A stretch of 64,000 nt of DNA from Polytrichum commune. Taxonomy: Eukaryota; Streptophyta; Polytrichopsida; Polytrichales; Polytrichaceae. Positions 2,216-48,150 of the stretch are shown piece after piece. Position 1 is the first letter of the stretch. Every line of letters starts with the position of its first letter. A program made the position numbers and the translations under genes. Where the stretch lies: positions 12,117,001 through 12,181,000 of the forward strand of contig OX485807.1 of assembly GCA_950295325.1 (NCBI GenBank), in the 5' to 3' direction. The notes beneath the pieces are model-generated. The model searched no databases, was not told the origin of the DNA, and was given only the letters and a program-made list of their open reading frames with translations.

Positions 2216-2876
2216 GCACTTTCAATAATTGGAACTTAATCAAGGCAAGTCCAATTATTTGTGATGTGTCATCATAAATTTGTTCATGCAACACATTTCA
2301 TTGTGTAAATTGATAGGTAAAAATTGGAGAACATGAAAAACAAGTCATGTAATAGAGTTATCTACAAAGTCGCTCAATGAGGGACGAACCCATGGGTTTG
2401 ATCCTTCTTCGATAAAAACTTTCTATTAAGAGCTCATTAGTAGCTCATCGTGTAGCGGAGCCTATTTAAAAAGTTGGGTGAAGTTTTGGGACCTCCTCTT
2501 TCGACCTCTCAAACTTTGAGAGGATTTTAGGATCTAAAATAAAGATATGCGCATGGGGACTCATTGTTCTAAATTCCGGATCAGCCTATGGAAGGCTAGC
2601 ATGGCCTACCCATCCTACTAAGACAAGCTAGAAAACCGGATTTTAATAGCATGGCAACACTCTTTGTGTATAATGATTTAAGCATTAAGAAAACTTGGGT
2701 AACTTTGTGGAAGTTCTCATGAACTCATGGTTTGGGAATTGGGACTAAACCCATGGTTTCATGTGCTTGGCTTTACAAATAACTCTAATACCCACATACC
2801 CTAAAACACAATATGGCTCAAGTAACTTGCCAGAACTTGGAAGGCTTGAAGAAAGAAGAATAGTTAGTTCGAATAC
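2216..2876. other. intergenic, nothing recognised
   Basis: No gene, RNA gene or repeat shared with the rest of the window was seen. Confidence 0.5.
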
Positions 2877-3773
2877 TACACTAAATATTGTATTTAATGT
2901 CACCAATTCTATTTGTCTTGCACAATTTTGCAAATTGCCCGTGTAGTGTCGCCACCGCTGACCGTTAACCAAACATTCATTTGTCATTCCTTGTAAATAT
3001 TTTTGGGGCATATAGATAAGAATGGTTTCAAATACTGTCACTTACTAAGTGAATTTTCAACCAAATTTCAATCATCCATGACAACATTTCATTATGTAAA
3101 ATGTTAGAATGCATAATATGATACCATACATTGTTCAATACTTGAAATTCGGATGAACTTAGAGTAAGTTGGGACGACAATATATACTTGTAAGTTATTC
3201 ATAAGAAGTGTCACTAAAGGCCACTTCACACTCGAGCCAAGAGCCATGACCATGAAATTGTGAGAGCCCAAAAGAAAGCGCCCAAAGGCCGTCCCAACAC
3301 ACCTCCAAAATAATGCAGCGTGGTCATGGACCCTCAAAGTGTAGTGTGAATTCACATGTGACCAAGCCCTCAACCAAATGCTATTTCAATGAAGTTTTTA
3401 TGTATGTGGGTCCTCACACATGATGAAGTAGAATAAATCAATGGTTGTGAACAATCGGAGTGCCATGGTCTCCTAGTTTTGTGTTCAGTGTACCTCCAAG
3501 AGGTGGTTTTTGAAAACCGTCCAAGTGACCATGAAACATGATCCATTCGATGCCATGTAGACTTCACATCCATATTGCATTCATGTACTCCATTGGTCCC
3601 TCAAGTGTAGTTTGAAGCGAACTTGGACCGGCTCCGCCGTTTGCACCAATGAAAGTGCTTGAAGTATAATAATGGTCACGGGCTCTCAGTCTTGTGTGTG
3701 GAGTGGCCCTAAAGAACGTTACCGCAATGACATAAATTACCATATGACACTAAATACAATATAGTAAAGTGTG
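2877..3773 (+). repeat. family A MITE-like element, interrupted by a PIF/Harbinger-like insertion
   Basis: It begins with a TACACTAAATATTGTATTTA-type terminus and follows the family A consensus seen at 39037-39413 and 34013-34405: CACCAATTCTATTTGTCTTG, later CATTCCTTGTAA, TCAATCATCCATGACAA and AAGAAGTGTCA. It breaks at 3217 and resumes at 3710 with GTTACC, AATGACATAAA and the end CACTAAATACAATAT. The element at 3218-3709 therefore inserted into it. Confidence 0.7.
3218..3709. mobile_element. PIF/Harbinger (Tourist)-like non-autonomous element, 492 bp
   Basis: The terminal inverted repeats read AGGCCACTTCACAC on the left and, reverse-complemented, GGGCCACTCCACAC on the right. Both sides are flanked by TAA, the 3 bp target preferred by PIF/Harbinger transposons. 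A full relative lies at 50191-50693 in opposite orientation, and diverged or partial copies at 51487-51819 and 52240-52600. No transposase is encoded. Superfamily assignment rests on target site and terminal sequence only. Confidence 0.75.
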
Positions 3774-5930: not shown

Positions 5931-6250
5931 TCTTGGTCATAGTGTAGAGTCACCGACACTAATGTAAACCTAACATTAATTTGTCATTCCTTGTTTAAGA
6001 GAATATGGACTTTGTAGATTTACAATGTTGCAATTACTGTCACGTACTAAGTGCTTTTTCCATCCAAGTTTCAATCATCCATGACAATATTCCAATATTG
6101 AAATGTTGGATGTAAAATATACAAACTTTGTTTCACCAATTGGCAGTTGGATAACTAAAAGTAAGTTGAGATGATAGTACTTGTAAACTTATTCACAAGA
6201 AGTGCCATTAGAAAAGTACCACAACGACATAAAATACCATGGGACACTAA
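5931..6250 (+). repeat. family A element copy, broken near its 3' end by the element at 6251
   Basis: It follows the family A block order: CACCGACACTAATGTAAACC, CATTCCTTG, CAATTACTGTCACGTACTAA, TCAATCATCCATGACAATAT, AAGAAGTGCCATTAG, GACATAAAATACCATGGGAC. It stops at GGGACACTAA, exactly where the Harbinger-like element starts. Confidence 0.7.
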
Positions 6251-7154: not shown

Positions 7155-7464
7155 TGCAATACATTCTAAACTCCGTAGTATCACACCCATGGCAATCAAA
7201 GTGCACGTGATAGTACGGAGTTTTGTAGTGCTAACATGGATGTGTGATACTATAGACTTAGTGCAGCTTGTGACACTATGGAATAACACAAAGTGCAACA
7301 TTTGAATGGTGTGGTGTGGTCCACTCCACTTGGCCTTCCCGGGCGACGTGGCATACGCATGCACCAACATTCAACAAGTGGCATAAGAAGAAAAACAATA
7401 ACAACAATAAGAAGGTGACACTCAACATATTGACACATGCTGCAATGCGAGGGTGTGGACTGAC
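7155..7464 (+). repeat. diverged duplicate of the 6770-6900 segment
   Basis: The stretch CCGTAGTATCACACCCATGG through GACACTATGGAATAACAC resembles the segment CTAATATCATGCCTATGG through ACATTATGGAATAAAAC near 6780-6890. The whole 6770-8275 block seems to have grown by successive duplications. Confidence 0.5.
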
Positions 7465-8275
7465 TTCTTGGGGTGGTTTGCATTAATGACAAAATTTGTG
7501 ATATAAGGGAGACAAATGTGACAATAAGGAGTGAGATTTGAACTACGAACATCCGTTTCCTAGGGTTTCAGGATATTAGAGAGTGAGTGACACTATGGGG
7601 GTTTATATTATAGAGTTTAGGGTGTATTTAGAGAGAATACTAGAGTACCTCATCTAGTGGATGTTGTCTAGAGAGCTTTTAGAGCAACTTTTAGGAGTGG
7701 CACACGTGTGTCGAGCTTCCGGCCTCCGGGTAGGGCTTCTTTGGTGGTTTGCGCTAATGAAAAAATTGTGATATAAGGGAGAGACATGTGACATTAAGGA
7801 GTGAGATTTGAACTACGAACATCCGTTTCCAAAGGTTTCGGGATATTAGAGAGTGAGTGACACTATGGGGGTTGATGTTACAGAGTTTAGGTGTATTTAG
7901 AGAGAGTACTAGAGTACCTCATCTAGTGGATGTTGTGTAGAGAGCTTTTAGAGCAGATATTAAAAATGGCACATGTGTGTCGAGCTTCCGGCCTCCAAGT
8001 GGGGCTTCTTTGGTAGTTTGCGTTAATGAAAAATGATTGTGATATAAAGGAGAAACATGTGACAATAAGGAGTGAGATTTGAAGTACGAACATCCGTTCC
8101 CTAGGGTTTCAGGATATTAGAGAATGAGTGACACTACGAGGGTTGATATTACAGAGCTTAGGGTGTATTCAGAGAGAGTACTGGAGTACCTCATCTAGTG
8201 GCTGTTGTCTGGAGAGCTTTTAAAGCGGATTTTAGGGTTGGCACACGTGTGTCGAGCTTCCGGCCTCCAGGTGGG
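7465..8275 (+). repeat. three tandem copies of a ~268 bp unit
   Basis: Units start near 7468, 7735 and 8004. Each contains TTTGCxxTAATGA, GTGATATAA, GGAGTGAGATTTGAA, TACGAACATCCGTT, GAGTGACACTA, GAGTACCTCATCTAGTGG and ends at GTGTCGAGCTTCCGGCCTCC. Copies differ by scattered substitutions. No frame stays open across units, so this looks like noncoding satellite-like DNA. Confidence 0.8.
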
Positions 8276-8647
8276 GCGGGCACTTGGGAAAGGCAAATAT
8301 CAAAGAAGGTCAGCAGGCAGGCAGGGCCTTGATCTTTGTTACAAGTTTAAGTTATCTTTGGCACACTCTTCAAACACCATAACAGCTAAGTGAGCGAGGT
8401 GTGCTAATGTGGTGCTGCCAAATGGTAGCTTAACTTCACAAATGCTGGACCTCAAACTTGCCATTGTCATGTGGGGCAACACACACTTCGCCACTTGGAA
8501 GAAACTTACATTTTTAGCTGCTAGCTCACTCGCTCGATTTTGGGATGTCGCACTTTTCCTCAAATTCGAGTTTAAAAAAAAAAGGGGGTTGTCTGTAGCC
8601 ATCTTGTTCTTGGAAGTTGTTATTTTGTGGCTCAAAACGGTTTGTTG
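8276..8647. other. intergenic, nothing recognised apart from one weak inverted match
   Basis: The sequences AGCTAAGTGAGCGAG near 8384 and CTCACTCGCTCG near 8525 are inverted partial matches. An open frame of about 148 codons on the minus strand crosses this region and the SINE copy; it is treated as chance. Confidence 0.4.
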
Positions 8648-11865: not shown

Positions 11866-12310
11866 ATGGCTATCAGAGCCCAACATTTTCCTTTCTAATT
11901 GCACCCATACCCAGACCATGCCCATCAGCAGCGACCTATGCCCACCCATGCCCACCCATAGCATGACATGTGCGCACCCATGCCCACCCATGCCCACACA
12001 TAGCATGACATGTGCCCACCCATGCCCACCCATGCCCACCCATGATATTCAAATTGCGCCCATGTATTCAAAAATTATGTAATGTGTATTGTGTAATTGT
12101 GTAATTGTGCCCCACCCATGCCCACCCATGAACAATAATATCGCAGCTATGCCCACCCATGCCCACCCATGAACAATAATAGCGCAGCCATGCCCACCCA
12201 TGCCCGCCCATGAACAATAATATTGCACCCATGCCCACCCAAAACCCATGGGCATGGGTGGGTATGGGCATGGGTATGGGCGCCCAATGTAGGGCTCTGA
12301 TGGCTATTAT
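11866..12310. repeat. CCCACCCATG minisatellite flanked by short inverted repeats
   Basis: From about 11938 to 12280 the 10 bp unit CCCACCCATG recurs many times, interspersed with AGCATGACATGTGC and GAACAATAATA spacers that form a higher-order period. Near 12245-12280 the unit appears inverted (GGGCATGGGTGGGTATGGGC). Outside it, GGCTATCAGAGCCC (about 11868) faces GGGCTCTGATGGCT (about 12291), suggesting the array lies within, or grew inside, a small inverted-repeat element. Confidence 0.75.
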
Positions 12311-12620
12311 GTAACACCCAAATTTCGGTGTTTAGTGTCACCAATAACTCTATTTGTCTTCCTCAACACTCATTGTAAACCACTTGTGTAGTGTCACCAA
12401 CACTAAATGTAAACCTCACATCAATTGTCGTTCCTTGTAAGGAAATTTGGGCAGTATGGATCTACAAAGCTGCAATTATGGTCGCTTACTATGCGATTTT
12501 TCATCCAAATTTGGATTGTCCGAGACAACGTTTCATTACAAACGATTCAAGGATGCAAAATGTACCCCACTTTTGTTTCAACAATTGGTGTGAATTGCAT
12601 CGAAATCTCGATGCCTTAAA
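12311..12620 (+). repeat. family A element, 3'-truncated copy
   Basis: Contains TTTAGTGTCACCAATAACTC, TATTTGTCTTCCTCAACAC, CCAACACTAAATGTAAACC, CGTTCCTTGTAAG, and TTTTTCATCCAAATTTGG. Family similarity fades after about 12616. Confidence 0.65.
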
Positions 12621-13794: not shown

Positions 13795-14120
13795 ACATTT
13801 TGAGTGGTATGTGGTTTGGTGTGGATCCAAGAACTAATACCAAGAACACATGTGTTCCAAAGAGACATGATTGAGTGTTCAAAATATGGTAACCATTCTA
13901 GACTCAATAATGACCATAATTTGGGGGGGGGGGATTACATGTACAACCGTTTAATGAATACGAGAGAGTCTTCACTTTGAAAATGAATAAGATATCCATG
14001 CGAGCTCTGAAAATGATGAGGAAAGTGACTACAACTTCGATTTGGGTTTGCTAACCATCTCATACAAATTGCATGGTTCGTATCTTAAGAGAAGTGGGTT
14101 ATTTGTGGGGAAAAGTAACC
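13795..14120 (+). repeat. family C element with internal poly-G
   Basis: Starts within GAGTGGTATGTGGTTTGGTG, passes CTAGACTCAATAATGACCAT and a poly-G tract at about 13923-13932, and ends near ATCTTAAGAGAAGTGGG. Confidence 0.7.
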
Positions 14121-14999: not shown

Positions 15000-15365
15000 T
15001 GATTGGTTACTTGTTCCGACCAACCCACTTCTCTTAGGATTTGAAATATGTGACCAGTACAAGTTGGTTAGTGAATCCAAATCAAGGCTATAGCCATTTT
15101 TCTCATATATTTTTGAAGCTCATCTGAACATCTTTGTCATTATCAAAGTGAAGATTCTTGTGCTCATTAAATGGTCATGTAGGTCCCCTCCTAATTATGT
15201 GGAGTAGATATCAAGCCTAGAATGATTGCCATAATTCTATCACACAATTCAATCTCTTTTAAACACATGTCTCTTTAGTTTCCTTTCTTGGAGCCACACC
15301 AAATCACATACCAATCAAATATTGGTGTCCAATTAAGATAAGCAACCAAATTAGGCATGTCTACC
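15000..15365 (-). repeat. family C element (first of three near-tandem copies)
   Basis: Reverse orientation: GGTAGATGTGTCTTGATTGG at the left and CCAAATTAGGCATGTCTACC at the right form ~25 bp inverted ends. The interior carries AGTGAAGATTCTTGTGCTCA and AAGCCTAGAATGATTGCC. The position of the usual G tract here holds a short CCCC. Confidence 0.75.
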
Positions 15366-15404: not shown

Positions 15405-15795
15405 AGGACTTAAGGAATATGGGTCTTGAATGGTTACTTTTTTCCAACTAGCTCACTTATCCGAGGATATGAAACACGCAATTAAAACAAGATGATCAGC
15501 AAATCTAAATCGAGGCGAAAGACACTTTCCTCGTGATTTTTAGAATTTGTATGAATATCTCATTTCATTTTCAAAGTGAATAGCCTTTGACTCACTAAAT
15601 GGTCATATAAGTCACCCCCCCCCCAACCCCCCAGTATGTTGACTATTGAGCCTAGAATGGTCACCATATCTCAAATACGCAATCCAATGTCTTGTAAACA
15701 CATATTATTTTGGTATATGTTTTGGGAGTCACACCAAACCATATGGCACTCAAACAATGGTACACTTATAGGAAAAATAATTGAATACAAGTTGT
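15405..15795 (-). repeat. family C element (second of three near-tandem copies)
   Basis: Reverse orientation with TCCAACTAGCTCACTTATCC, CAAAGTGAATAGCC, a poly-C tract at about 15617-15624, and CCTAGAATGGTCACCATATC. Confidence 0.7.
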
Positions 15796-15829
15796 CTACC
15801 TTAAACAAGCACATTTTGTTGTGCACCTA

Positions 15830-20539: not shown

Positions 20540-21300
20540 AAACACATATCACATATGTGGTTAGGCGAAGCTTCAAGAACAAATACCAAAAAGAGGTGTA
20601 TTGAAACGAGACTAGTGTACTTGCTCAAAACATGATAACTATTATGAAGTCAACAACCAACATAAGTAGAGGGTCAAGCATGACCATTTAATAAGCACGG
20701 TAATCTTTACTTTGATACTTCATAGAGCATTCATATAAGCTCCAAAAACGATGAGGAGAGTGGTGACAACCTTGATTTGGATTTGTTAACTATCCCATAC
20801 TAAGTTAAGGTAGAAATACCATGAACCGTGAAAATAAGGTGATCCACATTGAAGATATGGTCTTACAATCATTAAATTTTTTTCCAAGATACAAGAGAAG
20901 GATTCATGAAGAATGCAAGTTTGTTTCATATTATTATTCCTTGTTAAAAAAATCTACGATTTCTCAAAGTGGAAAGTTTGTCAAACCCCCTACTCGTTCA
21001 TTAGATTCTCCTTAAACTGAACACGGTAATGCTCATTTCCACACAGAACATCACCTAAACCAGTCAACTCACGAGTACATTAAACTGTAATCAATGGTAG
21101 TGAAACACGACTAAGTTCATCTACACTAATTGTACACACATATCAAGATGCCAGCCTCGCAATTATCGGTTTTAGAATTGACACTTCACTATTATGACGG
21201 AAGTCTACTGCACGGGTAGAGGGTAGTTCACAGTTTGTGGTATTTCTACCTTTAATTGCAGCGCGTTCCATATCCTAAGAGAAAAGTAAAGTGGGCTAGT
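20540..21300 (+). repeat. family C element split by a family I insertion
   Basis: The 5' part runs from GTGGTTAGGCGAAGCTTCAA to TTGTTAACTATCCCATACTAA (about 20813). The expected continuation (TTGC, CGTTCCATATCCTAAGAG, AAGTGGG) resumes at about 21256. The 439 bp between them is the family I element. Confidence 0.65.
20814..21252. mobile_element. family I inverted-repeat element, ~439 bp
   Basis: The left terminus AAGGTAGAAATACCATGAAC is mirrored at the right by GTTTGTGGTATTTCTACCTT. TAA is found on both outer sides (20811-20813 and 21253-21255). A second family member is at 36780-37587. No transposase frame is recognised; an interior 64-codon frame is probably accidental. Confidence 0.65.
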
Positions 21301-23194: not shown

Positions 23195-23405
23195 TGGCCT
23201 TAAATTATTATTATTATTTTCCCCCGACTAGCCCACTTCTCCTAGAATGTGAAACACTCAATTAGTACAAGATGGTCAGCATTTCCAAATGAATGCTAAA
23301 GCCACTTTACTCATGATTTTCAAAGCTCGTATGAATATCTCAAACAATGGCAAAGTGAAGATTCTTGTAATCATTAAATGGTAATATAGGTTGCCCCTAG
23401 TTATG

Positions 23406-24500
23406 GGGGCTGCCTAAATACCCCCGACGAGCATTGCAGTTGTCAGGGCGGCGGGCAAGGGCAGCCCCAAAAAAGCCAAAGGTTCGGACACCCGACCCTA
23501 GCCTAATCCCCCGACCCTGTCCACCCGGTGTCCAGCCCGGCCTCCAGCCTGGACAGACGCCCGGTTTTCCGGCCGGCTTCCAGCCTGGCTACCCGCCCCA
23601 CCCTCCACCTGGCCACCCTCCACCTAGCACCTAGCCACCCTCCACCTTTACTAGTGCACCCGCCTTTCATTTGAATTTTTTTGGTTTTGCTTTGCTCATG
23701 GCTGTTGCAATGATGTGAGGAGCTTTGGTGTGGTTGTCAAGAACATGGCGGCGGCCATGCATATGCACTAGATCTTGGTTCTGAGGTTGTAGGACAGGGC
23801 GCTGCTCCAAAAAATGGAATGGATCCATGAGAGGGACACAATTTAGTGCACCCGCCTTTCATTTGAATTTTTTTGGTTTTGCTTTGCTCATGGCTGTTGC
23901 AATGATGTGAGGAGCTTTGGTGTGGTTGTCAAGAACATGGCGGCGGCCATGCATATGCACAAGATCTTGGTTCTGAGGTTGTAGGACAGGGCGTTGCTCC
24001 AAAAAATGGAATGGATCCATGAGAGGGACACAATTTCATGGCATCCGGCCAAGCACATGAACCACATCTTGGATCTGAGGGCGATGGACAGGGCGTTTTT
24101 TTGTTTAGGGTTGCAATGGATCCAAGAGAGAGAGATAATTTCGTGGTGGCAGCGAAGCCCATGGACTGGATCTTGGATCTGAGGGCGATGGACAAGGCGT
24201 TTTTGGTTTAGGGTTGCAATGGATCCAAGAGAGGGGAACATTTTCATGGCAGTGGCGGAGCACATGAATTGGATTTTGGATTTGAGGGTGATGGACAGGA
24301 CGTTGCTAGTTTAGGGTTGCAATGGATCTAATAGAAGGATACAATTTCATGGCATTCGACCAAGCACGTGGACTGAATCTTGGATCTGAGGGCGATAGAC
24401 AGGGCGTTTAGGATTTGAGATTGCAATGGATCAGAGAGAGGGACACAGTTTCATGGCATGCGGCCAAGCTCATGGACCAGATCTTGTGTTTCAAGGTGTA
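23406..24500 (+). repeat. left inverted arm of the MULE, with an internal 194 bp duplication
   Basis: Mirrors 27240-28144. It is longer because a ~194 bp block beginning AGTGCACCCGCCTTTCATTT occurs twice in direct order (about 23651-23844 and 23844-24037). The right arm has this block once, so the duplication arose after the arms were formed. Confidence 0.8.
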
Positions 24501-24770
24501 GGACATGGCGTTTAGGATTTAGGGTTGCAATGGATAAAAGAGAGGGACACAATTTCATGGCATGCGGCCAAACACATAGATAGATCTTGGATCTGAGCGC
24601 GATGGACAGGGCGTTGCTGATTTAGGGCTGCAATGGATCTAAGAGAATGACACAATTTCATGGCTTGCGGCCAAGCACGTAGACCAGATATTGGATCTGA
24701 GGGCGATGGACAAGGTGTTTAGGGTTTAGGGTTGCAATGGATCAAAGAGAGGGACACGGTTTCAGGTTCT
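24009..24770 (+). repeat. ~104 bp tandem repeats in the left arm
   Basis: The anchor TGCAATGGATC recurs near 24009 (variant), 24112, 24217, 24318, 24420, 24525, 24629 and 24735, about 104 bp apart. Each unit also carries GAGAGGGACACAATTTCATGG and GATCTTGGATCTGAGGGCGA-like segments with substitutions. Confidence 0.8.
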
Positions 24771-25339
24771 GCTCTTGGATACAAGCCGGGGGTTTTGACG
24801 ACCTTAATAACCTCAAGGCATCCCAAGTTCGATGCATGTTTGATCCACCAAACGTAAAGTGTATGAGTGGCCAGCTTGCAGGGTTAACTGCTGAAGTTGT
24901 GCAAATCAGTGCAGGACAGGCCGTGGAGGATGAATCACATTGCGAGGAGGGTTTAGAATAAGAGGATCATTTTGATGTAAGAGTGGTGGACGTATTTTTA
25001 CCATGCTAGTGATAGTTTTTACATATGTTTGAACTACGATTGTAACAAATTGTGAGGTTTATGACAGGTATATAGTTTTGTGCAATCATATGTAGTAAAT
25101 CTTGTATTATCACGGTATGCTATGGAATCCAATGATATCATGTCCTATTCTATTCTATGTTGTCATAGCCTGCCTTAACATGTCATGTTATGTCCTATTA
25201 TGTCCAGGCATGTTTTAACTTGTTTTTTTTTCTATATTCACCAGTCTGACAACAATGAACACAATGTTTCTACAATCTTGGTTTCCTAATCCGGATGTTA
25301 GTATTTTTCCAACTTGTGTCTATACAACTTTTGAATTTC
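24771..25339. other. MULE interior, unrecognised
   Basis: Just inside the left arm a plus-strand frame at 24737-24961 starts in the last tandem unit (MDQREGHGF) and encodes 74 residues of no recognisable family. The rest is AT-rich with repeated TGTCATGTTATGTCCTATTA-like words. Confidence 0.4.
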
Positions 25340-26860
25340 CGCAAATTCCTAGGACCAGGACCAATTTCGAATGACAGGGGAAAAAGAAATGACGCTTCTG
25401 GCTTAGGCACCATCATTTGAAGTTGCCACTCCGTTGAATGGCCACACATAAGGGGTCATCCTCAAGCGGGAGTGGATCATTCAATTTCAAATTACCATAT
25501 TCTTAGTAATGATAGAAACAATCTGGATTTTCGTCTGTCCACATCCTCACACTCATGGCATCCCGTGGATGCTTGTCCCAAAGCTCTTTGGCAAGCTTAT
25601 TGGCTATGTTGCACACATCAACTGGCATAATAAAAATGTCCCTAGTCGCAGGCAAGTTATTTAGGGCACCTTGCATGACCACAGAGCTCTGCTATGCCAT
25701 AACATGAGCAGATGACTTCCGAGATCTAAGTGTATCAGCTATCAATTGTTTTGTTGTCATGGACAAACGACCCGATAAGCCAGCCCGCTGCCTTCCAAAC
25801 TCAGTGCCATGACAGGGTTTTCCGTCTTTATTAGTATGTGTCATGCAATGAAAATGAATTGTGCAAAGAGATTCATCTAGAAGTAATTATTTGACAACAA
25901 AATTATATTGACATCCTCTCTTGATGGACATTCCAGCCTGGATGTTACCAACCCTAGTTTTCCTCTTAGGCTTCGTAGATGTCTGGATGAGGGTTTGTGC
26001 CTGAAGGAGCTTCGCCTATGCATCTTGCACCCTGGCTTGATCCTAGAGATCCTCATCAGGATCGTCCTCATTGAGATCTGGAACAGCCTCTGTCATTTCT
26101 TTCTTCCGTCATTGTGGTTTTGATGTTGCGTCCTTCTGAGACTTTTCTACAAGATTTTGTGCCCTCTGTAATGCTTGTCGATGAGATGTTGATTTTTTTT
26201 TCTCCAATAGCACATGTGCAAACACCTTCTGGATCTCTACCTTGTATTGTCTAGTGTATTCCATTGGCCCATACTGGCACCAATAACTACATTGGAGGAC
26301 ACGTCTCATGGTTAGTTCAAGCTCTCACGACGTGATAGACCACATGTTTACAATATGGACTAGGTCATGCAGAGGACGTGTGTATGATAGGCTTCAATGC
26401 TATCTAAAAACCAAAATTCGAAGGGGATAAATGCAAATTCCATTACATGTTTAAACCCTAAACCCAAAACACCTAAAAAAAATGCAAGAATCGTTACCTG
26501 ATATCTTGAATTGCAGATTCGACACGTACTTGCTTCCTGTCTTGTCTCTTTATGCATTGCCTAGATTCCTCATGAAAGATGCAAGGGAACTGCCGGGTTG
26601 ACATTTCTCCTTCCAAAAAATCATCTAGCCGAGCCCAATGAATTGTAGCCTTCTGGGTATCCTTTATGTTACCATTGCCGTGATTGGACTTGGCCTCCCA
26701 CTTTAAATCTGTCCTGTCAAAAGGGCCAGGGGGTGGTACTTGGACAGATGCCAGGACTCTCTGGTATAAATTCCTCCATGACGGACGGATCTTCTTCTCT
26801 TGGACTGAAGTTTGTACTTCCATCACAGAAACAAACTCTGGCGTATTCAAATCTGCATCA
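25340..26860 (-). pseudogene. MULE-type transposase, N-terminal half, degenerate and truncated
   Basis: Reading the minus strand, fragments in order resemble the N-terminal half of plant Mutator-like transposases. The first (26494-26850) includes HWARLDDFLEGE. After a likely intron starting GTAACG comes QCSYWCQYGPMEYTRQYKVE (about 26290-26230). Next are CTIHFHCMTHTNKDGKPCHG (about 25865-25800), DVCNIANKLAKELWDKHPRD (about 25620-25560), and AMSVRMWTDENPD followed by an in-frame TAA at about 25503, then EYGNLKLNDPLPLEDDPLCV. A second stop lies at about 25710 (TAG after HVMA), and a frameshift precedes WQLQMMV near 25425. Similarity ends there, before where the catalytic DDE domain would begin. 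Family assignment is from memory of conserved words, not a search. The gene is broken and cannot supply transposase. Confidence 0.6.
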
Positions 26861-27239
26861 TTCGTATTCAGGTGAGATGCATGGCTTTCATGGTTGACGT
26901 TATGATCTACTAAATGTCCTCCAGGTGGTCATTGTCCAGGTTTGTGAGTAGCCATGAATTCAAATTCCGAAGTGTTTGCATCATCTCCTGTCCCAAGATC
27001 CACTGCATATGCATTGTAGCCACTATGTCCATGGACTGTAGATCGCTCCTGTGCAAGTTCAGGGTCACCTCCAAAATTCCATATTCTTAAAGGGTTTCCC
27101 TCATTTCCATCCATTGCATTCAGTGGATCATCGCCTTGTCCTACACCCTGAAACACAAGATCTGGTCCATATGCTAGGCTGCATGTTATGAGATTGTTTT
27201 CCTCTCTTGGATCCATTGCATTCAGTGGATCAGCGCCCT
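26861..27239. repeat. inner part of the right-arm repeat array
   Basis: Diverged ~104 bp units (anchors near 27106 and 27212). A minus-strand frame of 129 codons (27318 down to 26929) begins in the array with MDQREGHSF and contains a duplicated GPDLVFQGVGQG block. It reflects translation of the repeat and may once have formed the 5' end of the transposase transcript. Confidence 0.45.
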
Positions 27240-28144
27240 GTCCTACGCCCTGAAATACAAGATCTGGTCCATGAGCTTGGCCGCATGCCATGAAACTGTG
27301 TCCCTCTCTCTGATCCATTGCAACCTCAAATCCTAAACGCCCTGTCCATCGCCCTCAGATCCAAGATTCAGTCCACGTGCTTGGTCGAATGCCATGAAAT
27401 TGTATCCTTCTCTTAGATCCATTGCAACCTTAAACTAGCAACGTCCTGTCCATCGCCCTCAAATCCAAAATCCAATTCATGTGCTCCGCCACTGCCATGA
27501 AAATGTTCCCCTCTCTTGGATCCATTGCAACCCTAAACCAAAAACGCCTTGTCCATCGCCCTCAGATCCAAGATCCAGTCCATGGGCTTCGCTGCCACCA
27601 CGAAATTGTCTCTCTCTCTTGGATCCATTGCAACCCTAAACAAAAAACGCCTTGTCCATCGCCCTCAGATCCAAGATGTGGTTCATGTGCTTGGCCGGAT
27701 GCCATGAAATTGTGTCCCTCTCATGGATCCATTCCATTTTTTGGAGCAGCGCCCTGTCCTACAACCTCAGAACCAAGATCTAGTGCATATGCATGGCCGC
27801 CGCCATGTTCTTGACAACCACACCAAAGCTCCTCACATCATTGCAACAGCCATGAGCAAAGCAAAACCAAAAAAATTCAAATGAAAGGCGGGTGCACTAG
27901 TAAAGGTGGAGGGTGGCTAGGTGCTAGGTGGAGGGTGGCCAGGTGGAGGGCGGGGCGGGCAGCCAGGCTGGAAGCCGGCCGGAAAACCGGGCGTCTGTCC
28001 AGGCTGGAGGCCAGGCTGGACATCGGGTGGACAGGGTCGGGGGATTAGGCCAGGGTTGGGTGTCCGAACCTCTGGCTTTTTTGGGGCTGCCCTTGCCCGC
28101 GCCCTGACAGCTGCAACGCTCGTCGGGGGTATTTAGGCAGCCCC
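27240..28144 (-). repeat. right inverted arm of the MULE
   Basis: Inverted copy of the left arm with tandem-unit anchors (GATCCATTGCAA) near 27313, 27416, 27519, 27623 and 27727, the single CATTTGAATTTTTTTGG-type block, then the GC-rich tip ending GTCGGGGGTATTTAGGCAGC plus CCC. Confidence 0.8.
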
Positions 28145-28335
28145 CTAGTTATGTTGACTATCGAACCTAGAATGATTATTGTATTTTGAGCACAAAGTAC
28201 AAACTCTTTTAAACACATGTCTTTTGGTATCTATTCTTGTAGATGCACCAAAACACATACCACTCAAGTTAGGTGTCCTAATAAGAGAAGTGACCAAATA
28301 AGGGTTGTCTACCTTAAGAGGGTAAATGGGTTTTC

Positions 28336-32877: not shown

Positions 32878-33205
32878 AAGGTAGACATGCCTAAATCCAA
32901 CATAGCAATAGCGTGGCCACTTATATGGTACCAATTAGGTGTAATTAGGTGTGGATCTAAGAATGGACACCATAAAGACTTGTGCTTAAAAGAGATTGCA
33001 CCATGTGCTCAAAATATGCTAATCATTCTAGGTTCAATAATCAACATGATTAGGGGGGACCCATATGACCCACTTAGTGAACATGATAATCTTCACTTCA
33101 AAGTCATTAAGACATTCATATGAGCTCCAAAAAGTACGAGACAAATGACTATGAACACAATTAGGATTTGCTAATCATCTCGTACTAATTGTGTGTTTCA
33201 CTATT
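32878..33205 (+). repeat. family C element
   Basis: Starts AGGTAGACATGCCTAAATCC and contains TCTAGGTTCAATAATCAACATG followed by a short G run (GGGGGG near 33053-33058), CATATGAGCTCCAAAAAG and AATCATCTCGTACTAATTG. Confidence 0.75.
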
Positions 33206-34012: not shown

Positions 34013-34405
34013 ACTATACTATTGTATTTAGTGTCACCAATTCTATTTGTCTTGGTCAATACTAATTGTAAACTACATGTATAGTGTCACCAACACTAAA
34101 TGTAAACCTACCATTATTTTTCGTTTTTTGTGAATTTTTGGGCATTATAAATATACAATGTAGCATTTTTTGTCACTTAATAATTACGTTTTCATCTGGA
34201 TTTCAATCATTCATGACAATATTTCATCACATGATTATTACGATGCAAAATACACCGAACTTTGTTTCAATACTTGGCATGGATTTCATCCAGATTTTGA
34301 TCATGCACGACAAAACTTGTATAGTCATTCATACGAAGTGTCATGAGAAAAGCTACCAGAATGACATAAAATACCATATGGCACTAAATACAACATTTAG
34401 TGTAG
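34013..34405 (+). repeat. family A MITE-like element, intact length
   Basis: Left end ACTATTGTATTTAGTGTCAC; right end GGCACTAAATACAACATTTA followed by GTGTAG, so the tips are inverted. A 145-codon frame crosses it and is not conserved in the copies at 39037, 12311 or 2877. Confidence 0.75.
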
Positions 34406-34640: not shown

Positions 34641-35954
34641 TATGAATGGATGGAGGGTGGTGAAATAAGCAGTGTTTGTTGGGTTGCGGACGAGAAACCA
34701 TAGTATTTGATGAAGCCTCGAAATGAGGTGTCAAGTCCCTTAGATTACGAGATTTATCTTGGGAGTTCACATTGAATTGGAGTGGTCAAGAACAAAGCCA
34801 AGTCCCTAAAAAGTGGACTTGTTATTAATGGTTTATTTGCATGTGAATGCGATGTCTTCATATAATGCATTACTCATTTTTTAAATATGGTCTAGAAGTT
34901 ACATTGTATGGGTGTCTCTTGTATTATAAAGACATCATTGAGGCTTATGTGATTTGCATTAGGATTCACTTGACTATTAATACATTCAACTTTATGAACA
35001 TATATTAATTATTTTGGTTGGTGCAATATTTGTGCATTTGTTCGTTATCATGAGCTCTTCCAAAATATGATTGTTGAATTGGCAAGAGTCTAACTTTGAG
35101 TCCTTAGTTTGGAATGCGATCTCTTGGTAGCCAGAAATTGCATGTATTGCAAAGCTTAAGCATGCTATCCATAGTGGTTTTGAGGACAAGGTCTATCTTA
35201 GGACAAGGCATGTTTGAGCATTACAAAATGAGCTCCCTCATGAGTTTGGATTTAGGCCTCTAAGGGCGTTCCATGCTAGGAAGATGACTTCAAAATCTAA
35301 CCATAGTCTTACAAGACTGGGACATTGAAAATGTATGTTGCCATCATATTGCACAAATGTGTCAGCCTACATATTGTCATCTATAATTATTGACTTATAC
35401 ATTGCATGTTGACTATGAATACAAATGTTCCAAGGGTAGCTCAGGCTGCCCGTAAACAATTAACTTGCCCTAAGAAAAATTAACTATATTGATATAATTA
35501 ATGTTGTACATGGAGTTTAAAAACATAGTAATGGGGTTCTAGTCCATGGAGATAAAATCCCCCAAACATGAGCATTCTCATAAAATAGCATTCCTCAATA
35601 GATATGCACTCAAGGACAACATGAATTGCTTTGTTGTGGAACCATAGACTAATGATATATGATTTATACAATGTTATCCTAGAAATAATGTACACTTATT
35701 TTCATGGACTTTATAACAACCTACGTTATTTTGAACTCAAAGTCACACATTGTCTAGGGCCTATATTATTTTGAAACAACTTCAATTTTTTTGATGCCAT
35801 CAGTTAAAACGAAGACCCTAACTTTGGCCACATGCAATTTTAACTTCCAGGAGTGTTGGCCCCACGCCAATTAAGGCCACTTATCTTACATTCTAGACTT
35901 GGACATGTCCCTAACGATATGAAATCACTATAAGTCAATGTCGACATTAGGTGT
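34641..35954. other. intergenic, nothing recognised
   Basis: AT-rich with short frames only; no family members seen. Confidence 0.45.
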
Positions 35955-36300
35955 AAGGTACATATGCCTAATTCGGTTACTTGTCTTAATCAAACACCTA
36001 TATTTGAGTGGTATGTGGTTAGGTGTGGTTCCAAGAACAAATACCAAAAAGACATGTGATTGGAAAATATTGGACTACATGCTCAAACTATGATAACCAT
36101 TTTATACTCAATCACCAACACAATTTGGGGGGGGGGAACCTATATGACCATTTAACAACACAAGAATCTTCACTTTGATAATGAATAGGTATTCATATGA
36201 GCTCCAAAACTTATGAGGAAAGTGGCTACAACCTCAATTTGGATTTGCTAACCAATTCATACTAATTACTTGTTTCACATCCTAGGAGAAGTGGTCAGAA
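35955..36300 (+). repeat. family C element, best preserved copy
   Basis: Starts AAGGTACATATGCCTAATTC and GGTTACTTGTCTTAATCAAA; internal TTATACTCAATCACCAACAC, then a poly-G tract at about 36127-36136; CATATGAGCTCCAAAAC; ends CACATCCTAGGAGAAGTGG, followed by an (AAG)n run. Confidence 0.75.
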
Positions 36301-38945: not shown

Positions 38946-39036
38946 TCATTTTAGGGCCACTCATCTTGCCATACTATGTAATGTGTGTAAAACTTCAAGA
39001 TTTCACTCAACTGACCCCAAAAATTCCAAATATTTA

Positions 39037-39413
39037 CTACGCTAAATATTGTATTTAGTGTCACCAATCCCATTTGTCTTGCTCAATACTAATTGCAAAC
39101 CACCCGTGTGAACCTAACATTATTTGTCATTCCTTGTAAGACATAGTTTTGGGCAATATACATTTACAACATTGCAATTACTGTCAGTTACCGAGTAATG
39201 TTTCATCCAAATCTCATCATCTATGACAATATTTCAATCCAGATATTGTTTGGATGCAAAATATGCCAAACTTTGTGTCAATAATTGGCATTTGGATGAT
39301 GTAAAAGTAAGTTGGGATAACGGTTTTTGTAAACTTGTTCATAAGAAGTGTCATTACAAAAGTTACCAGTGACATAAAACACTATATGACACTAGAGACA
39401 ACATTTAGTGTAC
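39037..39413 (+). repeat. family A MITE-like element, intact length (377 bp)
   Basis: Left CTACGCTAAATATTGTATTT; right GACAACATTTAGTGTA. The internal order matches the other copies. Confidence 0.75.
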
Positions 39414-40598: not shown

Positions 40599-43500
40599 TT
40601 ATACTAAGCATTCTTGAAATCCTTTTCTCAAGGCTGTCTCATCCAGATCTTTACCTATGAAGACCAACTTGTTGTTTCGTGTCTCTTCAGGTTCCCAAGC
40701 CCTGTCAGGAGAGCCTTCAAATAAAGCATGAACACCCTGCACATCAAACTCGTATGAGATTACAACAATGTGAAGTATACTATAATGCGAAGATTGGTGT
40801 CATTAGAGAATGAATGGATAAACAAGACCTTACTTCGACTCAGTTATTGCATTGATCAATACAACTTTGAGCATCTTTATATAGATCTCTTTGCAGCAGG
40901 AAGAATATGTGTAGGAGTGGAAACAGAAATAATAAATGTAGTATAGATAAAAGAAAATCTATAATGTAGACACAAGTGCTCCCAGAGGACTCAAGTTAAG
41001 GGTTGAAAGACCACTAATCAACACTCCAGGTTAAACCCTAATTCGTATGAACATGCATATGATTGAACTATGCAGATTAAAATATGAAACAAAGAATTTA
41101 AAATAGGATACGTAAGACATTTGTGTGAAGAAGAAATTACGGACACAGATAAAGAGGAATATCCTGTAAGTCGAACTCTTGAAGAACTATTACTCTTCTT
41201 AAGTTTATGTTGCATGGGTTAGGAAAGGAGATTGGCTTTTAACTTGAAGTGTTCAAAGCACACATGCTCAGAAGTGAAGTTAATAAAGCTTGCAATAAAT
41301 CACATGATATACCTGGAACACAAATCGGGCATTGAAGCCATCAATAGATAACACTCCCTTCATGCGATAGATATCATCACTTCTTTCATTCAGCAAGTCC
41401 TCTAGCCAGTCATTGATCTGCAGATCAGTCACCGACAAATAGGAAAGACGAATTATGATCAATAAATTCTTAGGTCATCAAACCAAAGGTAACAATGCCA
41501 GAAATTGACGATGTGTTGCAGATACAGCCACAAGAACCTCAGCAGTACCAATGAATATGACTGCAGCAATTACCTTATCGAGATTCACTGCCCCATCACA
41601 TACTATGCTTACTGAAGATACACCTGGGTCATGTGTGTGGTCATGGTCATGACTATGCCCATGATTATGGCTATGAGACTCATGCTCATGATGGTGATCT
41701 GCAATTTCCAGATATCGCCACACGGTCAGATTTATTAGTGGGCACATAAAAACTTCCCATAATACCATTTTCTCATAGAAGTTTTGATTAACAGAGATGC
41801 AGCCTACAATTCCTCTAGTTAAAAGCTAGATTAACCTGCATGTGCATGAAATTTGTGCATTTAGAAAGGCGGGTAAAATGTTTAATAAACTACACCAATT
41901 TAATAATACAGTGTGGGTGGGACCTTGTGTGTCAACCAATTGGAGATTGTGAGTATGAGGTGTCATCAAGATTGATTAACAAGTGCTCCAAGTGTCATCA
42001 ACACATTGAATACTAACAAATCTCTGAAAACTAGTGCGGTTCACTCGTTTAATATTATGGTGATTTCTTATTACATAACAGGAAAGAAACAACCCACAAA
42101 AGATGGGGGGAACGGGGCAAGAGGACTGGAATGGACTTTCTGGACATGAAGTCCACCTCTCTCACCTGAGGCTCCCGGAAAAGAAAGTGCTATCAATAAT
42201 ACAGAAAAACGTCAATTGTCATCCTATGTATGATCATAGAAAGCAATTGATAAATCCATATTAATGAGACCGACACTGTAAACAAATAGATTTAAAAGAG
42301 CTGTGATGCTTTGACAGGCTTGTGGATGAAAGATTTGATTGCTACCATGATCATGTCCACAATCAGGCGCACAGTCTTCTGTATGTACATGCCCATGCTC
42401 ATGATCATGGTCGTCCTCATGTATGTGCTTTGCAGTGCTTCCAGATTTCTCTGCAGTCACCTCTTTCTCTACCCTACCAACCCACACTCTCATGTATCAG
42501 CAGCACATCAAGGAACGATATAAAAACTATTCTATTAGGAATCCCAACTCTTGAACCAGCAGAAATAGTATTCTGAAGTGCAAGTCCTGCAAATGGTGTG
42601 GGCAACTAGACTTTTTAGATATCAGGAGAGAAAAATGCTATAGGAAAACTTGTAATCACCCATACTACTCGAGGAACTAGAACGACAAGACTAGCCATCT
42701 ACATCTCTTGATGCAAGAGCACAACCAAATATGCTTTTTGCACTTCATAAGGACAACTTGGAGAAAGGTCAAGAACTCACTTCTCTAAATCAAAGCCTCC
42801 AATTCCTAGAACATAATCCATATCAACAGCACCAAACTTGGCTCGTTGAAGACGTGCTAATCCATTTATACGCTGCCAGGGAGACGTCAAGTACAGTTCT
42901 CATATTAGGAAACATAACATTCAGCAGATGTTGGTTTCCCTCCTTTAACTACTATGAAGCTCTGTGCCTCTGATGAAAAGTGATAACTAAATGTTTCTGG
43001 GCATGATGTAATAATGGACTTTGTCAGTACACACAAGAGAACCTCAACTACTTGAGAAGCATATATCTTCACAATAGACAATGAAGCTTAGGCAGATATA
43101 AGCACACATGCACCTACGTAAAAAGGAACATTGCCATCCACAAAAAGTGAGGTACATGAGCCTGCCACAATCACATCCATAACTTCTAAATTGAGTTCCA
43201 CCAACAACCAGAAACAAATGAGTTAGAAAATGCCTTGAACACTCAGCAAAGTGCTACAACTTTGGCATAAGAACAACTACAGCTTATAAATATGAATCTA
43301 ATAGCATTTCAATAATACGTACCTGTATCCGCCGTGCAAGTGTTTCAATGTCTTCTTCACTAGCTAGATCAATCTGCAAAAACATAAAAGATGTTTATAA
43401 CCATGACAACAGAAATATTTCTATTCAAAACGCCTAAGAATTTTGGGCAGTCTTATTCCAGCACAGAGCCAAGTTTGCTACAACTCTGATTACACTTAAT

Positions 43501-46500
43501 GGCTACACTGGGTCAAGAGATGTTTGCAACCTGAGTAAACACTCACATAAATACTCCAGCAAACTAACCTCCAGACCATTAAAAACAACCAAGGTGGTTA
43601 CCAGATATATAAAGGCATCTTGCAGAGTAAGATAACAGGCAAATGACTTTTACCTTGTTTAGAATGATACGATCTGCATACGCTATCTGTTCCACAGCTT
43701 CATTCACAATTCCATCAGGTTTGACCTCATCAATGTGTTGTGTAGCATGCTTTGCATCCACTAAAGTCACCACCCCATCTAGACGTACTTTGTCCACCAG
43801 GTCCTCTTCTAGAAAAAATGTCTGTATGATTGGTGCAGGGTTTGCAAGTCCTGATAGGCAACCAAAGTGTACAAAGTCACAACCATGTGCATAGGAAAAC
43901 CTGTAGCGCTCATTGTGCTCATTGGGTTTGTGCAAGTGATCTAGGAATAGCTGCAGTAGATCTCCCTGAAAGATGTATTACAGAAATCAAACTTGTCCCC
44001 AGATAATTGAGCAATCAACGATAATCAAACACGGAGAAAGCTCGTAAGAACTGCCCATGAGACAGCTGAGGTAGAGACACAGTAGTCTTTAATCTTTGAA
44101 CTAATGCTCAATAATGTGGACTATTCTCTTTCTAGTGTGTGGCAACATAAAATTGGATAATAATATTGACTTGATACTTTGCATCCACCATAAAAACAAC
44201 AACCCCGCAAGGCAGACAAAATATTATTGGTTGGGCTACCCAATAATTCTTAAACAATGCAGCAAATAGCAGGTGCCATCAAGCTTGCTGATTTTTAATA
44301 ATCCAGCAGCTCATCTCTGATGCACATGCTGTAAAGATGGAAAGTCAATTCTAACCTAAAGCAGGGTTCCAGAGCACCTGGATGTGAGAGAAGATGGAGT
44401 GGGATTTTCCTCCATTACACAAAAATAAGCCAGAAGATAATAATTCCCAGATTTGGACATATTACTTATTTCTCAACAAACTACTGTGTAACTGGGCAGA
44501 AAGGCACAGCCCTGTCAGTAAACCGTAACCAAAAACATCAAGAGGCCCCTGGCTTGTCTACAAGGAACCAAGCTGGGAAAGTTAAGTACCCACTTAGGAA
44601 GTGAAAGCCCTTAAAAGGATACATGAGGGTGAGACTATAAAATCATGAGATAAGCCCTAAAAATGCCAAGGAGGAGGCAGAGAGTGGCAAAAGGTGGTAC
44701 CAAAAAGTTATTTAGAGAAATTATCAACTTTCAAAGAATAGCATTATATTTCCAATGCTGAGAACAAGACACAATCTTTTCCCCATGTTTATCCTTCTCT
44801 CTAATTTCACCTTTGTAACTTAAAAACCCAACCACAGCTCCAAAGAGTTCTCAATTACAGCAAATTCCCTATCATAAAATTGGGTTCAAACCAAGATTGA
44901 CATTGAGTGAAAGGAGTTTTCACACCTGTGGTTTCGATGACAATGTGATCAAATTTGTCTTTCTTCGTTGTGAGTAATTCCCCCAACATACGAACCAGAT
45001 CACCTCGAACAGTACAACACAGGCATCCATTGTTGAGCATCAGGATATCCTCATCACCTTGTCGCTTTGCTGCAACCAGCGAGCTATCTATATCAACCGC
45101 ACCATACTGCACAATCAAATCGTAAGTCCAATTGTTCAAAGGGATGAGGAAGTAACTGACCAGACTCCAGAGAAATGAGCACTGCACCCTTCACTGCAAA
45201 TGTGATACTTGAACAGGTTTAAAATCATTCAAGTTTTATAACATCTAATAACACAAGTTAAAAGTATGATGAGTATGCCCGCACCTTTCCAGGATAATGA
45301 CATACATGACTCCAGTATAGCGTCAGACAAGAAATATTTCCTAAACATTTAAGCAACACATGAAGGATATGACCCAAACTGTGGAAGTCAGCCCAACCAT
45401 GGACATACAGATAGATGCCTTCCATCCAGGTACAAATAAGATAACCTTTCCTGTATGTTATGACCAACACCAAACTCAACTCCACAACCATAAAACATCT
45501 TCTGCCATTTCTTGAAAGAAGACCCAAAAGGCAGCAACAGACATTTACAAACCTGATATAACTACACACATCTGCTACTCCTCTTCATAAATAAAGTGGA
45601 TCCCTAAATTCATTGTTTCAAAATGCAGTCAATCAGGACAAGATTTTCTGACCTCATTCTCAATAACAGCAATGCGCTTTCCATGTTGTGCAGTAAGAAC
45701 ATGGTTGAGGAGCGTCGTCTGCAAGAATCAGAAATTGGTTAATTAAAATACTGGACCTCTAATTCCCTAAATAAGAAGACATGTCCTTAGACAACACAGA
45801 AGCAATGAAACATATGTATGTGTAAAATCAGCCAAGTTTATCACATACATTCTACAGATTGCAACTTCTCATGAAATGCTTCACCCACTTACTCTGCTCT
45901 GTGAGCTCTAACAAAGTCAGTGCACACTTGCAAGATACCCAGTGAATAGATAGACCACTACCCATCAACAAAAGTACTACTAGTTGTCTCCTAATGAGAT
46001 TTCCACCACAACTGAATGACCACAATACTGCCTCGTGTAGATGCTTATTGTGTACAAAATAATCAGAACCCTTTACATTCAGAATTTCAAATTTCCCTGA
46101 TGTAAAGTACCTCCAATTTTTCAAAATGCATGGATTAGTCTATAGAGACAACCTTTTGAAACTCATGCCTATTAATTCAGGTACTAACCCAGACTGCTTT
46201 GCACTTTTCCCTACTTGTGATAACCGTCTGAAGGCTTTTTCTGTAATAGCCTCAACACTCGTAGTTTAGTCACCTCAACACTTAGATGCTTGAGAAACAT
46301 AAGAGAGTAACCTTCTTCAAGAGGATAATCTTCTCCTTTGCACTAGTGCAATCATCACAAGTTTGCACTTGAGCCATGCGGCCAGGGAATACTTCCCTTC
46401 TGTCATGACATAAATCCCTTGTTTTTCTTTAAAGCGTTGAACCTTGTTGGCATTTGAGAAGGGTACTAGGTAGCGCTAATAAATCAAATTTCGATAAGAG

Positions 46501-47929
46501 ACCTAACCCCACATGGTACACAGTTCAAGAAACGCCTAACATTAACTACCAATTTCAGTACAAAAGTTGGCAATCAATCCCTCCACGTGAGTGATCGGGG
46601 AGATATTTGGGCATAACCGGTTGAGATCCTAGTGTTTGCAAGTCCAACCGGTTACATGTTGACATCCTCCGGTTTTCCTTTATAAAATTGGGGTATATTT
46701 TCTATAGATTCCTCTAAAGTGATCGGTAATTTCCTGCAGTCTTGAACTTCAAACCGGTTATTTCCCAAACTCAACCGGTTCATTTATAACTAACTGTCGG
46801 TTCTCCCCGATCATTGCTCCACGTCATTGGTCTTGCCTTCAAAGGTGGGCTTAAACCCCAAGACCTTAGCCCAAATCCCATGGCCACTTTGAGGTTGAGC
46901 CATCTAACGCAGGAATAGTACTTGGATGGGGACCTTCCTAGCACTTGATTTCCAGTGCACCCTACCACCTATGGTCCAGCCATTCATAGTGGAGTATCCA
47001 CTTAAACAGGAAATTCTCCACGGACCATGTGGGAACATAGGGGCTTGCCCTTGGGGGGAGATGGTTGCATGCCGCATTGTCAGCACCTTATCAAAGTTTA
47101 AGGTGTAAGAGAAGGCAATCTTCTTCGGGCCCTCTAATTCTTGTGATGCTTGATTTGGGATTACATATAGACTTAGAACAACTCAAAGATGAAGCAAGAC
47201 CATAATTTGCGCCGGTGGCAACATTGGAGTCATCTCTTGGTCTTGTTAAACAGAATTTTAAAACCTAATGAACTTGCCCTTGGGAGAGATAAGTCCAGGC
47301 GGTTGTTCAAGTGTTCACCTTAGTGTTCCACTTTGAAAGGAGATAGAAGTCTTCTTCAAGGGCCTTCTAATTCTCGTAATTCTCGTGATGCGTATTTTGG
47401 GATTATATATAAACTTAGACCACCTCGAAGATGAAGCAACACCATAATTCACGCCCCGGTGGCAACATTGGAGTCATCTCTTCTTCTTCTCGCCTTTAAA
47501 CTACTTTACCAGAAATTAACAACCTAATTCCATCCACATTCGACCTAGAAGACACTGACTTACTTTGCCGGAACCGAGAAATCCTGTAATCACAGTGATG
47601 GGAACGCGAGTATCCTCCCCGACAACATCAATTACGTCTTCTTCCTCCTCCTCCTCCTCCTCCTCCTGCTGTTGATTCCCAGCCACAGACGCAGCCTGAG
47701 CCGCTACCGCTACCGCTATCCTTCCTCTCCCCTCCCGCGCGAACGAAACCCCAAGGCGAGGCAAAACCATCACGCTCTTCCTCAATGTGGGGATTGAAAC
47801 CCTAGGAGGCAGCACGGACATCGACATCCCGTGCGACGTGATGGAGCTCCGGGCTGTCAGCTCGCTCCTGCCTCGCGGTGCCAGCGTTGGCATAGCCGTG
47901 TGCAACGCCGCCATGGCCACGGACGCCAT
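40599..47929 (-). CDS. plastid-type COBW (CobW/ZNG-like) GTPase, ten exons, 482 aa
   Basis: A G3E GTPase of the COBW family; members bind GTP and metal and act as metal chaperones or insertases (zinc for the ZNG branch). The closest plant group, from family knowledge, is the chloroplast COBW/PTAC17-like proteins. Exons on the minus strand: 47929-47564, 45718-45653, 45106-44926, 43850-43654, 43373-43323, 42872-42781, 42473-42346, 41698-41574, 41417-41313, 40736-40599; all introns are GT-AG and phases agree. Residues 1-85 are Ser/Thr/Arg/Ala-rich and acid-poor, like a plastid transit peptide; a Glu9 run follows at 89-97. Walker A GFLGSGKT is at 116-123 (split by intron 1), the metal motif CLCC at 172-175, ETTG at 202-205, NKID at 269-272 (split by intron 4). 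Residues 334-383 are extremely His/Asp-rich, then a CobW C-terminal domain (SIDGFNARFVFQG, NNKLVFIGKDLD). It looks intact. Metal specificity and localisation are inferred. Confidence 0.93.
43851..44925 (-). other. COBW intron 3, unremarkable
   Basis: A 1075 bp intron between the ETT|G codon and the LANPAPIIQTFF exon. No repeat family or RNA gene recognised in it. Confidence 0.6.
46583..46823. repeat. ~240 bp inverted-repeat element with repeated AACCGGTT palindromes
   Basis: Left CCACGTGAGTGATCGGGGAG; right CTCCCCGATCATTGCTCCACGT-like mirror. Inside, AACCGGTT occurs near 46615, 46649, 46752 and 46774, with a CCGGTT variant near 46670. Confidence 0.6.
47100..47495. repeat. direct duplication within COBW intron 1, period ~232 bp
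   Basis: GGGCCCTCTAATTCTTGTGA through GGTGGCAACATTGGAGTCAT recurs as GGGCCTTCTAATTCTCGTAA through CGGTGGCAACATTGGAGTCA. The second copy ends close to exon 1. Confidence 0.65.
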
Positions 47930-48150
47930 CTCCTCTCTCTCTTTCTCTCTCTCAAAATTCCTTACCCGAATCGAATTGAATTGGCAATCTTGTTGTGTGC
48001 TGCGAAGAAGAATGGCGACGGCGAAGGTGGCGATAACTTAGCAGCTCTTCGTCTGTCTGTCTGTTTGAAGGGAGGCCCAGCCACACACCAGCTCTGCCTC
48101 AAGCTCAGTGGTATGACAACGTGGACACTTAGTGCCATGTAGGATGCCAT
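47930..48150 (-). promoter_or_regulatory. COBW 5' leader / proximal promoter region
   Basis: Directly upstream of the ATG (47927-47929) the minus strand carries a GAGAGAAAGAGAGAG-like purine tract (CTCTCTCTTTCTCTCTCTC on plus at about 47934-47957), common in plant 5' leaders. No TATA box was assigned. Confidence 0.35.

Follow-up and report, generated by a model that had tools for sequence, protein, structure and literature searches.

What kind of mobile element occupies positions 23406-28144 of a 64,000-nucleotide stretch of the Polytrichum commune genome (contig OX485807.1; the whole stretch is called the window below), and how did its two long, inverted and repetitive arms come to be so alike? 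A first-pass annotation, made from the letters alone, had described a Mutator-like fold-back element at this locus. We conclude that the element is most likely a Mutator-superfamily DNA transposon of the cut-and-paste type that has foldback arms, now decayed and probably a non-autonomous copy, and we put the probability of this reading at roughly 0.78.

Target site and interrupted host repeat

The element spans 4,739 bp between the two copies of a perfect 9-bp target site duplication (TSD), CTAGTTATG. The boundaries of the first-pass annotation were exact to the base, and its perfect 9-bp duplication was borne out. On the plus strand of the window, CTAGTTATG occurs only twice, at the two TSD copies, and the chance of a 9-bp flanking match is approximately 4e-6 (by arithmetic). 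A run of Cs adjoins the insertion site on both sides, so that the shared repeat is longer than 9 bp when the element's own Cs are counted; we set the TSD length at 9 bp because of the mirror symmetry of the ends (GGGG...CCCC). The 27 outermost bp are identical between both ends. The 19-bp tip, with up to three mismatches allowed, has two occurrences in the window compared to none in 100 shuffles.

23397-23405, no strand: left TSD copy, CTAGTTATG (direct sequence reading)
28145-28153, no strand: right TSD copy, CTAGTTATG (direct sequence reading)
15016-15365, plus strand: empty-site paralogue of the host repeat (base-by-base reading)
15444-15804, plus strand: empty-site paralogue of the host repeat (base-by-base reading)
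36294-35954, minus strand: empty-site paralogue of the host repeat (base-by-base reading)
33201-32951, minus strand: empty-site paralogue of the host repeat (base-by-base reading)

The flanks of the element are a member of a dispersed repeat family of approximately 350 bp. The two flanks, joined and used as a query, matched the window at 12 places other than their own (E up to 1e-3); seven of these matches cross the junction, at 66-75% identity. Four of these paralogues were read base by base, and each has a single diverged version of the site with no insertion. Because these uninterrupted paralogues keep one version of the site, they are direct evidence that the element inserted into a host repeat and duplicated its target. 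The view that this is a fold-back transposon with a 9-bp TSD is therefore supported, and is strengthened by the empty sites.

Members of the ~350-bp repeat family are dense in the window (13800-14114, 15016-15365, 15444-15804, 20554-20803, 32951-33201 and 35954-36294), with 67-75% identity to the joined flanks.

Arm structure and copying between the arms

When the left arm (23406-24509) is set against the right arm in reverse complement (28144-27235), 910 columns can be aligned; 20 of these are mismatched, 18 of them by transitions (Kimura two-parameter distance, 0.022). The gaps in this alignment are two of a single base and one extra 192-bp copy on the left. The ends had been called exact mirrors, which holds for the tips and not for the arms as a whole. 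From the outside in, each arm consists of a GC-rich end domain of approximately 245 bp, a 192-bp unit, and tandem units of approximately 102-105 bp.

23406-23651, plus strand: left GC-rich, non-tandem end domain (arm alignment)
23652-24036, plus strand: left pair of tandem 192-bp copies with 98% matches; the right arm has one copy
24009-24764, plus strand: left tandem units, spaced 103-105 bp apart, seven full and one partial; register shared with the right arm to 24509
27109-27735, minus strand: right tandem units, spaced 102-104 bp apart; of the full units, the innermost two (from 27320 and 27218) share the frame of block A, a decayed interior gene block described below
27708-27899, minus strand: right single 192-bp copy (arm alignment)
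27900-28144, minus strand: right GC-rich end domain, mirror of 23406-23651 (arm alignment)

The left array comprises seven full units, the first of them at 24009, and a partial one at 24735, and each 192-bp copy on that side includes a unit-like half; the right array has six full units, a diverged seventh, and one unit-like half. These counts are close to the eight or nine units on the left and seven on the right given at first. The arms are thus long, inverted, made largely of tandem direct repeats, and unequal in unit number, as in the foldback structural class.

Unit-by-unit pairing of the left (L) and right (R) arrays indicates how the arms came to be alike. The pairs L1-R1, L2-R2, L3-R3 and L4-R4 are each 97-99% identical. 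Between different full units of one arm, identity is 73-85% on the left and 68-85% on the right, with the incomplete or diverged units L8 and R7 excluded from this comparison. Because the left-right pairs are far more alike than are units within an arm, the array must predate the last common state of the arms. In unit 5, the arms are alike up to 24509/27235 and then change abruptly, such that L5 and R5 are 86% identical over their whole length. Past this edge, the left arm continues with an arm-type unit and the right arm with a unit that is in the frame of the interior gene. Thus the sequence of one arm was taken from the other, in a tract that ends inside unit 5.

A later round of copying is hinted at by the 192-bp region. 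The left outer 192-bp copy is exactly that of the right arm, and the left inner copy differs from it at two positions. The region is covered by a run of 298 columns without mismatch between the arms, which hints at a later conversion tract; when mismatches were placed uniformly, 138 of 20,000 placements gave a run this long. There are six CpGs in the 298 bp of this run, compared to 14 in the 194 bp and 14 in the 418 bp that flank it.

The tips of the arms also have internal symmetry. The tip sequence GGGGCTGCC recurs in inverted orientation, with the copy ending 62-63 bp into each arm, and the folded tip has a 10-pair stem of nine perfect pairs and one T-G pair. When the first 100 bp were shuffled 5000 times, an inverted 9-bp copy of the tip arose in 32 cases. 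Folding of the tips was only moderately better than that of shuffled sequence, with z-scores of -1.89 and -1.73 for 70 nt and, for the left arm, -1.27 over the outermost 150 nt. Among the inverted pairs, the three longest (414, 394 and 258 nt) are 98-99% complementary. The inverted copy might serve as a second binding site; we take it as suggestive only, because the arms are copies, so that their ends do not count as independent cases, and because the z-scores for folding are weak.

Two further features of the units were noted. Many arm units terminate in TTTAGGGTT (24104-24733 and 27529-27640), a motif that we take to resemble the plant telomere motif; six of the eight forward copies in the window lie in the left array, and two of the four reverse copies lie in the right array. 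A motif common to the end domain and the arm unit was also considered. The best ungapped match was 9 bp on the reverse strand, equalled in 22 of 200 shuffles, and 7 bp on the same strand, equalled in 127 of 200. Shuffled sequences match equally well often enough that we dismissed the motif as evidence.

Interior frames and classification

Between the arms are the remains of a gene, read mostly on the minus strand, together with a short frame that leads inward from the left arm.

26497-27354, minus strand: decayed gene block A, with one in-frame stop in 286 codons
25440-26309, minus strand: decayed gene block B, with six in-frame stops
25273-25455, minus strand: short open frame in another register that overlaps the end of block B; catalytic region not recognised
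24737-24961, plus strand: 74-codon open frame that starts (ATG at 24737) in the last partial unit of the left arm and runs inward into unique DNA; no family match

In block A, the other frames have 17 and 17 stops on the minus strand and 10, 12 and 9 on the plus strand, and none of 2000 shuffles had as few stops in the best of six frames. Its first ATG, at 27318, is inside the right arm, and it terminates at a donor-like AG|GTAACG. The other frames of block B have 15 and 23 stops on the minus strand and 10, 15 and 15 on the plus strand. Near 25440 the register breaks and the coding signal stops; we infer that the frame at 25273-25455 continues block B. Overall, the interior frame has seven in-frame stops and one frame break. 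The insertion had been called recent or well-preserved, and "recent" was an overstatement given these lesions, arms that are 2.2% diverged, and the lack of a recognised catalytic part. A Cys/His-rich stretch in block B and the segment that follows it look like the zinc finger and pre-catalytic part of Mutator-type transposases, a resemblance that we treat only as a lead. In our view the interior frame may well be what is left of the front portion of a Mutator transposase, with the catalytic portion missing.

The ends of the element have traits of Mutator-like elements (MULEs). The TSDs of MULEs are typically 8-11 bp (PMC6446971; here and below, statements from the literature refer to the cited sections of each paper), a range that includes the 9-bp TSD found here, and the element has long terminal inverted repeats (TIRs). 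The arms, at 910 aligned columns, exceed the TIR lengths in the same survey, which are 14-500 bp in its text and 613 bp in one row of a table (PMC6446971). Membership in the Mutator superfamily is likely; we do not put it higher because no MULE domain was found in the interior pieces scanned, and loss of the domain from a broken copy is compatible with descent. The earlier assignment to Mutator is likely: the 9-bp TSD fits, but the "transposase remnant" that was also invoked rests on frame statistics and a resemblance to Mutator-type transposases, and Pfam gave no transposase family.

Several results weigh against this classification and the history proposed for the element. The window contains no other copy of the 19-bp tip with up to three mismatches, and a BLAST search with the element as query found no match in the remainder of the window (E 1e-3). 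Pfam scans of interior pieces (8, 3 and 10 pieces, some overlapping) found no transposase family; the few matches were unrelated and below cut-offs (best E, 0.079), and no MULE catalytic (DDE) domain was recognised in the scanned pieces. The 74-codon frame matched only KOW in Pfam, below the cut-off (E, 0.083). The shuffle control for block B was weak, with 84 of 2000 shuffles as open in the best of six frames. A 62-residue piece (25503-25691) had no relative among viral contigs or prokaryotic genomes and one chance-level match in PDB (E, 0.085), a 144-residue piece had no relative among viral contigs, and the 20-bp tip was absent from viral contigs; because these collections hold viral, prokaryotic and structural entries, such misses say little about plants. 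Finally, because CpGs are few in the 298-column clean run, low mutability could explain it.

Three alternative readings were weighed. The resemblance of block B to Mutator-type transposases, a lead only, speaks against a foldback element of another or unassigned superfamily, in which the arms would be convergent and the interior frame would not be a Mutator transposase, and we regard such an element as unlikely. Pfam, which gave no support for a Mutator transposase, is on its side. Foldback arms have been proposed to have independent origins in different transposon groups (PMC3169594), and Galileo, a foldback precedent, belongs to the P superfamily (PMC3688188); however, the 9-bp TSD fits Mutator and not the 7-bp TSDs of Galileo (PMC3573991). 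It is also improbable that the element is a Pack-MULE, a reading that keeps the Mutator-type ends and differs only in taking the interior frame as a captured fragment of a host gene. Non-autonomous MULEs can take up gene sequence (PMC3310237), and the interior has no transposase match. However, the frame opens within the arm repeats and contains two arm-type units in frame, which a native gene fits better than does a recent capture.

The third alternative is an assembly artefact, in which a palindrome or tandem array was misjoined. Long inverted arms and tandem arrays are frequent trouble spots in assembly, but these arms are told apart by 20 substitutions, by two gaps of a single base and by the number of 192-bp copies, and the exact TSD and the empty-site paralogues agree with the ends of the element. 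Because of the empty sites and the non-identical arms, we consider misassembly highly improbable. A decayed Mutator transposon with foldback arms remains our preferred reading.

A more novel reading is that a single continuous array makes up both the arm repeats and the beginning of the element's own gene, that arm growth recruited the 5' exon of the gene, and that copying between the arms set start-bearing units at both ends. Each arm would then open an inward frame, long on the right and of 74 codons on the left. We think this idea unlikely. It is weakened by a codon-position test on eight units (L1-L7 and R6, with right-arm partners and two incomplete units excluded), each taken over its first 84 nt, in which substitution rates were 0.232, 0.221 and 0.204 at positions 1, 2 and 3; at indels within units, the alignment follows the reading register only approximately. 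With no third-position excess and no sign of coding constraint on the array as a whole, a coding origin of the arm units was rejected.

Related elements, neighbouring sequence and arm evolution

The arms had been described as unlike those of typical MULEs. Repetitive foldback arms have already been described in the Mutator superfamily (Tm1, PMC3169594, and FARE, as cited there); the element is a new example of a known sort of transposon, with arms that are long and not of a new sort. Tm1 is a Mutator/Foldback family of root-knot nematodes (PMC3169594). Like the element described here, it has repetitive foldback arms, TSDs that are mostly 9 bp, arms within an element that are approximately 93% alike on average, an empty paralogous site, and some copies without transposase. 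In contrast, Tm1 units are approximately 14 bp, its outermost 7 bp are not mirrored, Tm1-A codes for a recognised Phantom-type transposase, and the host is an animal (PMC3169594).

Among plant elements, FARE of Arabidopsis has long foldback arms, is classed as a MULE, and has a reported MULE-domain transposase (as cited in PMC3169594 and PMC4486113); the likeness is drawn from the description in the citing papers and not from sequence comparison. MuTAnT of Medicago is a plant MULE with modular long inverted repeats that are able to fold back, but it targets TA microsatellites, 90% of its copies are 200-300 bp, and an array of ~104-bp units is not among the MuTAnT features described in the cited sections (PMC4486113). 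Plant MULEs with multiple tandem TIRs also have repeated terminal sequence; there, whole TIRs are duplicated, whereas here a unit of ~104 bp is iterated within the arm (PMC3310237). Rehavkus and some Phantom elements are Mutator-related and bear minisatellites, and the TSDs of Rehavkus are 9 bp; their minisatellites are one-sided (before the 3' TIR or after the transposase ORF), whereas here tandem units are present in both arms (PMC6446971).

Two elements of Drosophila share features of the arms. The arms of Tetris are divided into an end domain, a domain of tandem repeats with units of approximately 220 bp, and an inner domain, and complete copies in this fly host lack conserved ORFs (PMC4079207). 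The F arms of Galileo vary in repeat number and recruit inner sequence, and conversion has been discussed for them (PMC3573991); Galileo differs in its superfamily (P; PMC3688188), its 7-bp TSDs (PMC3573991) and its fly host. The tandem arm repeats of Galileo bear additional transposase-binding sites (PMC3688188), and by this parallel it is possible that the arm repeats here have extra binding sites and have recruited inner sequence.

Other repeats and one possible gene were found elsewhere in the window. A second dispersed family of approximately 300-bp repeats, linked by pairwise matches of about 70-78%, has members at 2874-3216, 5942-6250, 12328-12612, 34020-34404, 39035-39412 and 57172-57383. 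A 269-bp unit is present in three tandem copies with 88% matches at 7464-8277, and two adjoining minisatellites at 11934-12241, with 42- and 41-bp units, are built on CCCACCCATG-like blocks. On the minus strand, 41481-48037 contains exon-like frames with long introns, which may belong to a CobW-type GTPase gene. Two of these frames were scanned: for 47519-48037, cobW had an E of 0.096, behind two other families that were also below the cut-off, and for 41481-41825 the match was to ZrgA (E, 3.2e-4), below the cut-off. Neither Rfam, at the gathering threshold, nor ARAGORN, with the bacterial code, gave a hit in the window.

A course of events consistent with these observations can be proposed. 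A Mutator-type transposase, acting in trans if at all nowadays, would bind the end domain, and perhaps also sites that recur along the arms, join the mirrored ends, and insert the element with a 9-bp stagger. The arrays may expand by unequal exchange or slippage, and the arms would grow by tandem duplication, of which the extra 192-bp copy on the left is a visible case. Gene conversion between the arms, or template switching during gap repair, may keep the arms alike. The interior frame opens inside the innermost arm repeats, and the right arm probably also provided the interior gene with its leader and start region.

Foldback elements put kilobase-long inverted repeats in a genome, and hairpin RNA and rearrangements can result. 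The element described here is a clean specimen of foldback arm evolution, in which unit-by-unit pairing reveals copying from one arm to its partner, and the point where the copied tract stops can be seen within a single unit. If the arms and the start of the gene do form one continuous array, then the arms would serve at once as transposase-binding ends, leader and coding exon, and this would explain the inward growth of foldback arms.

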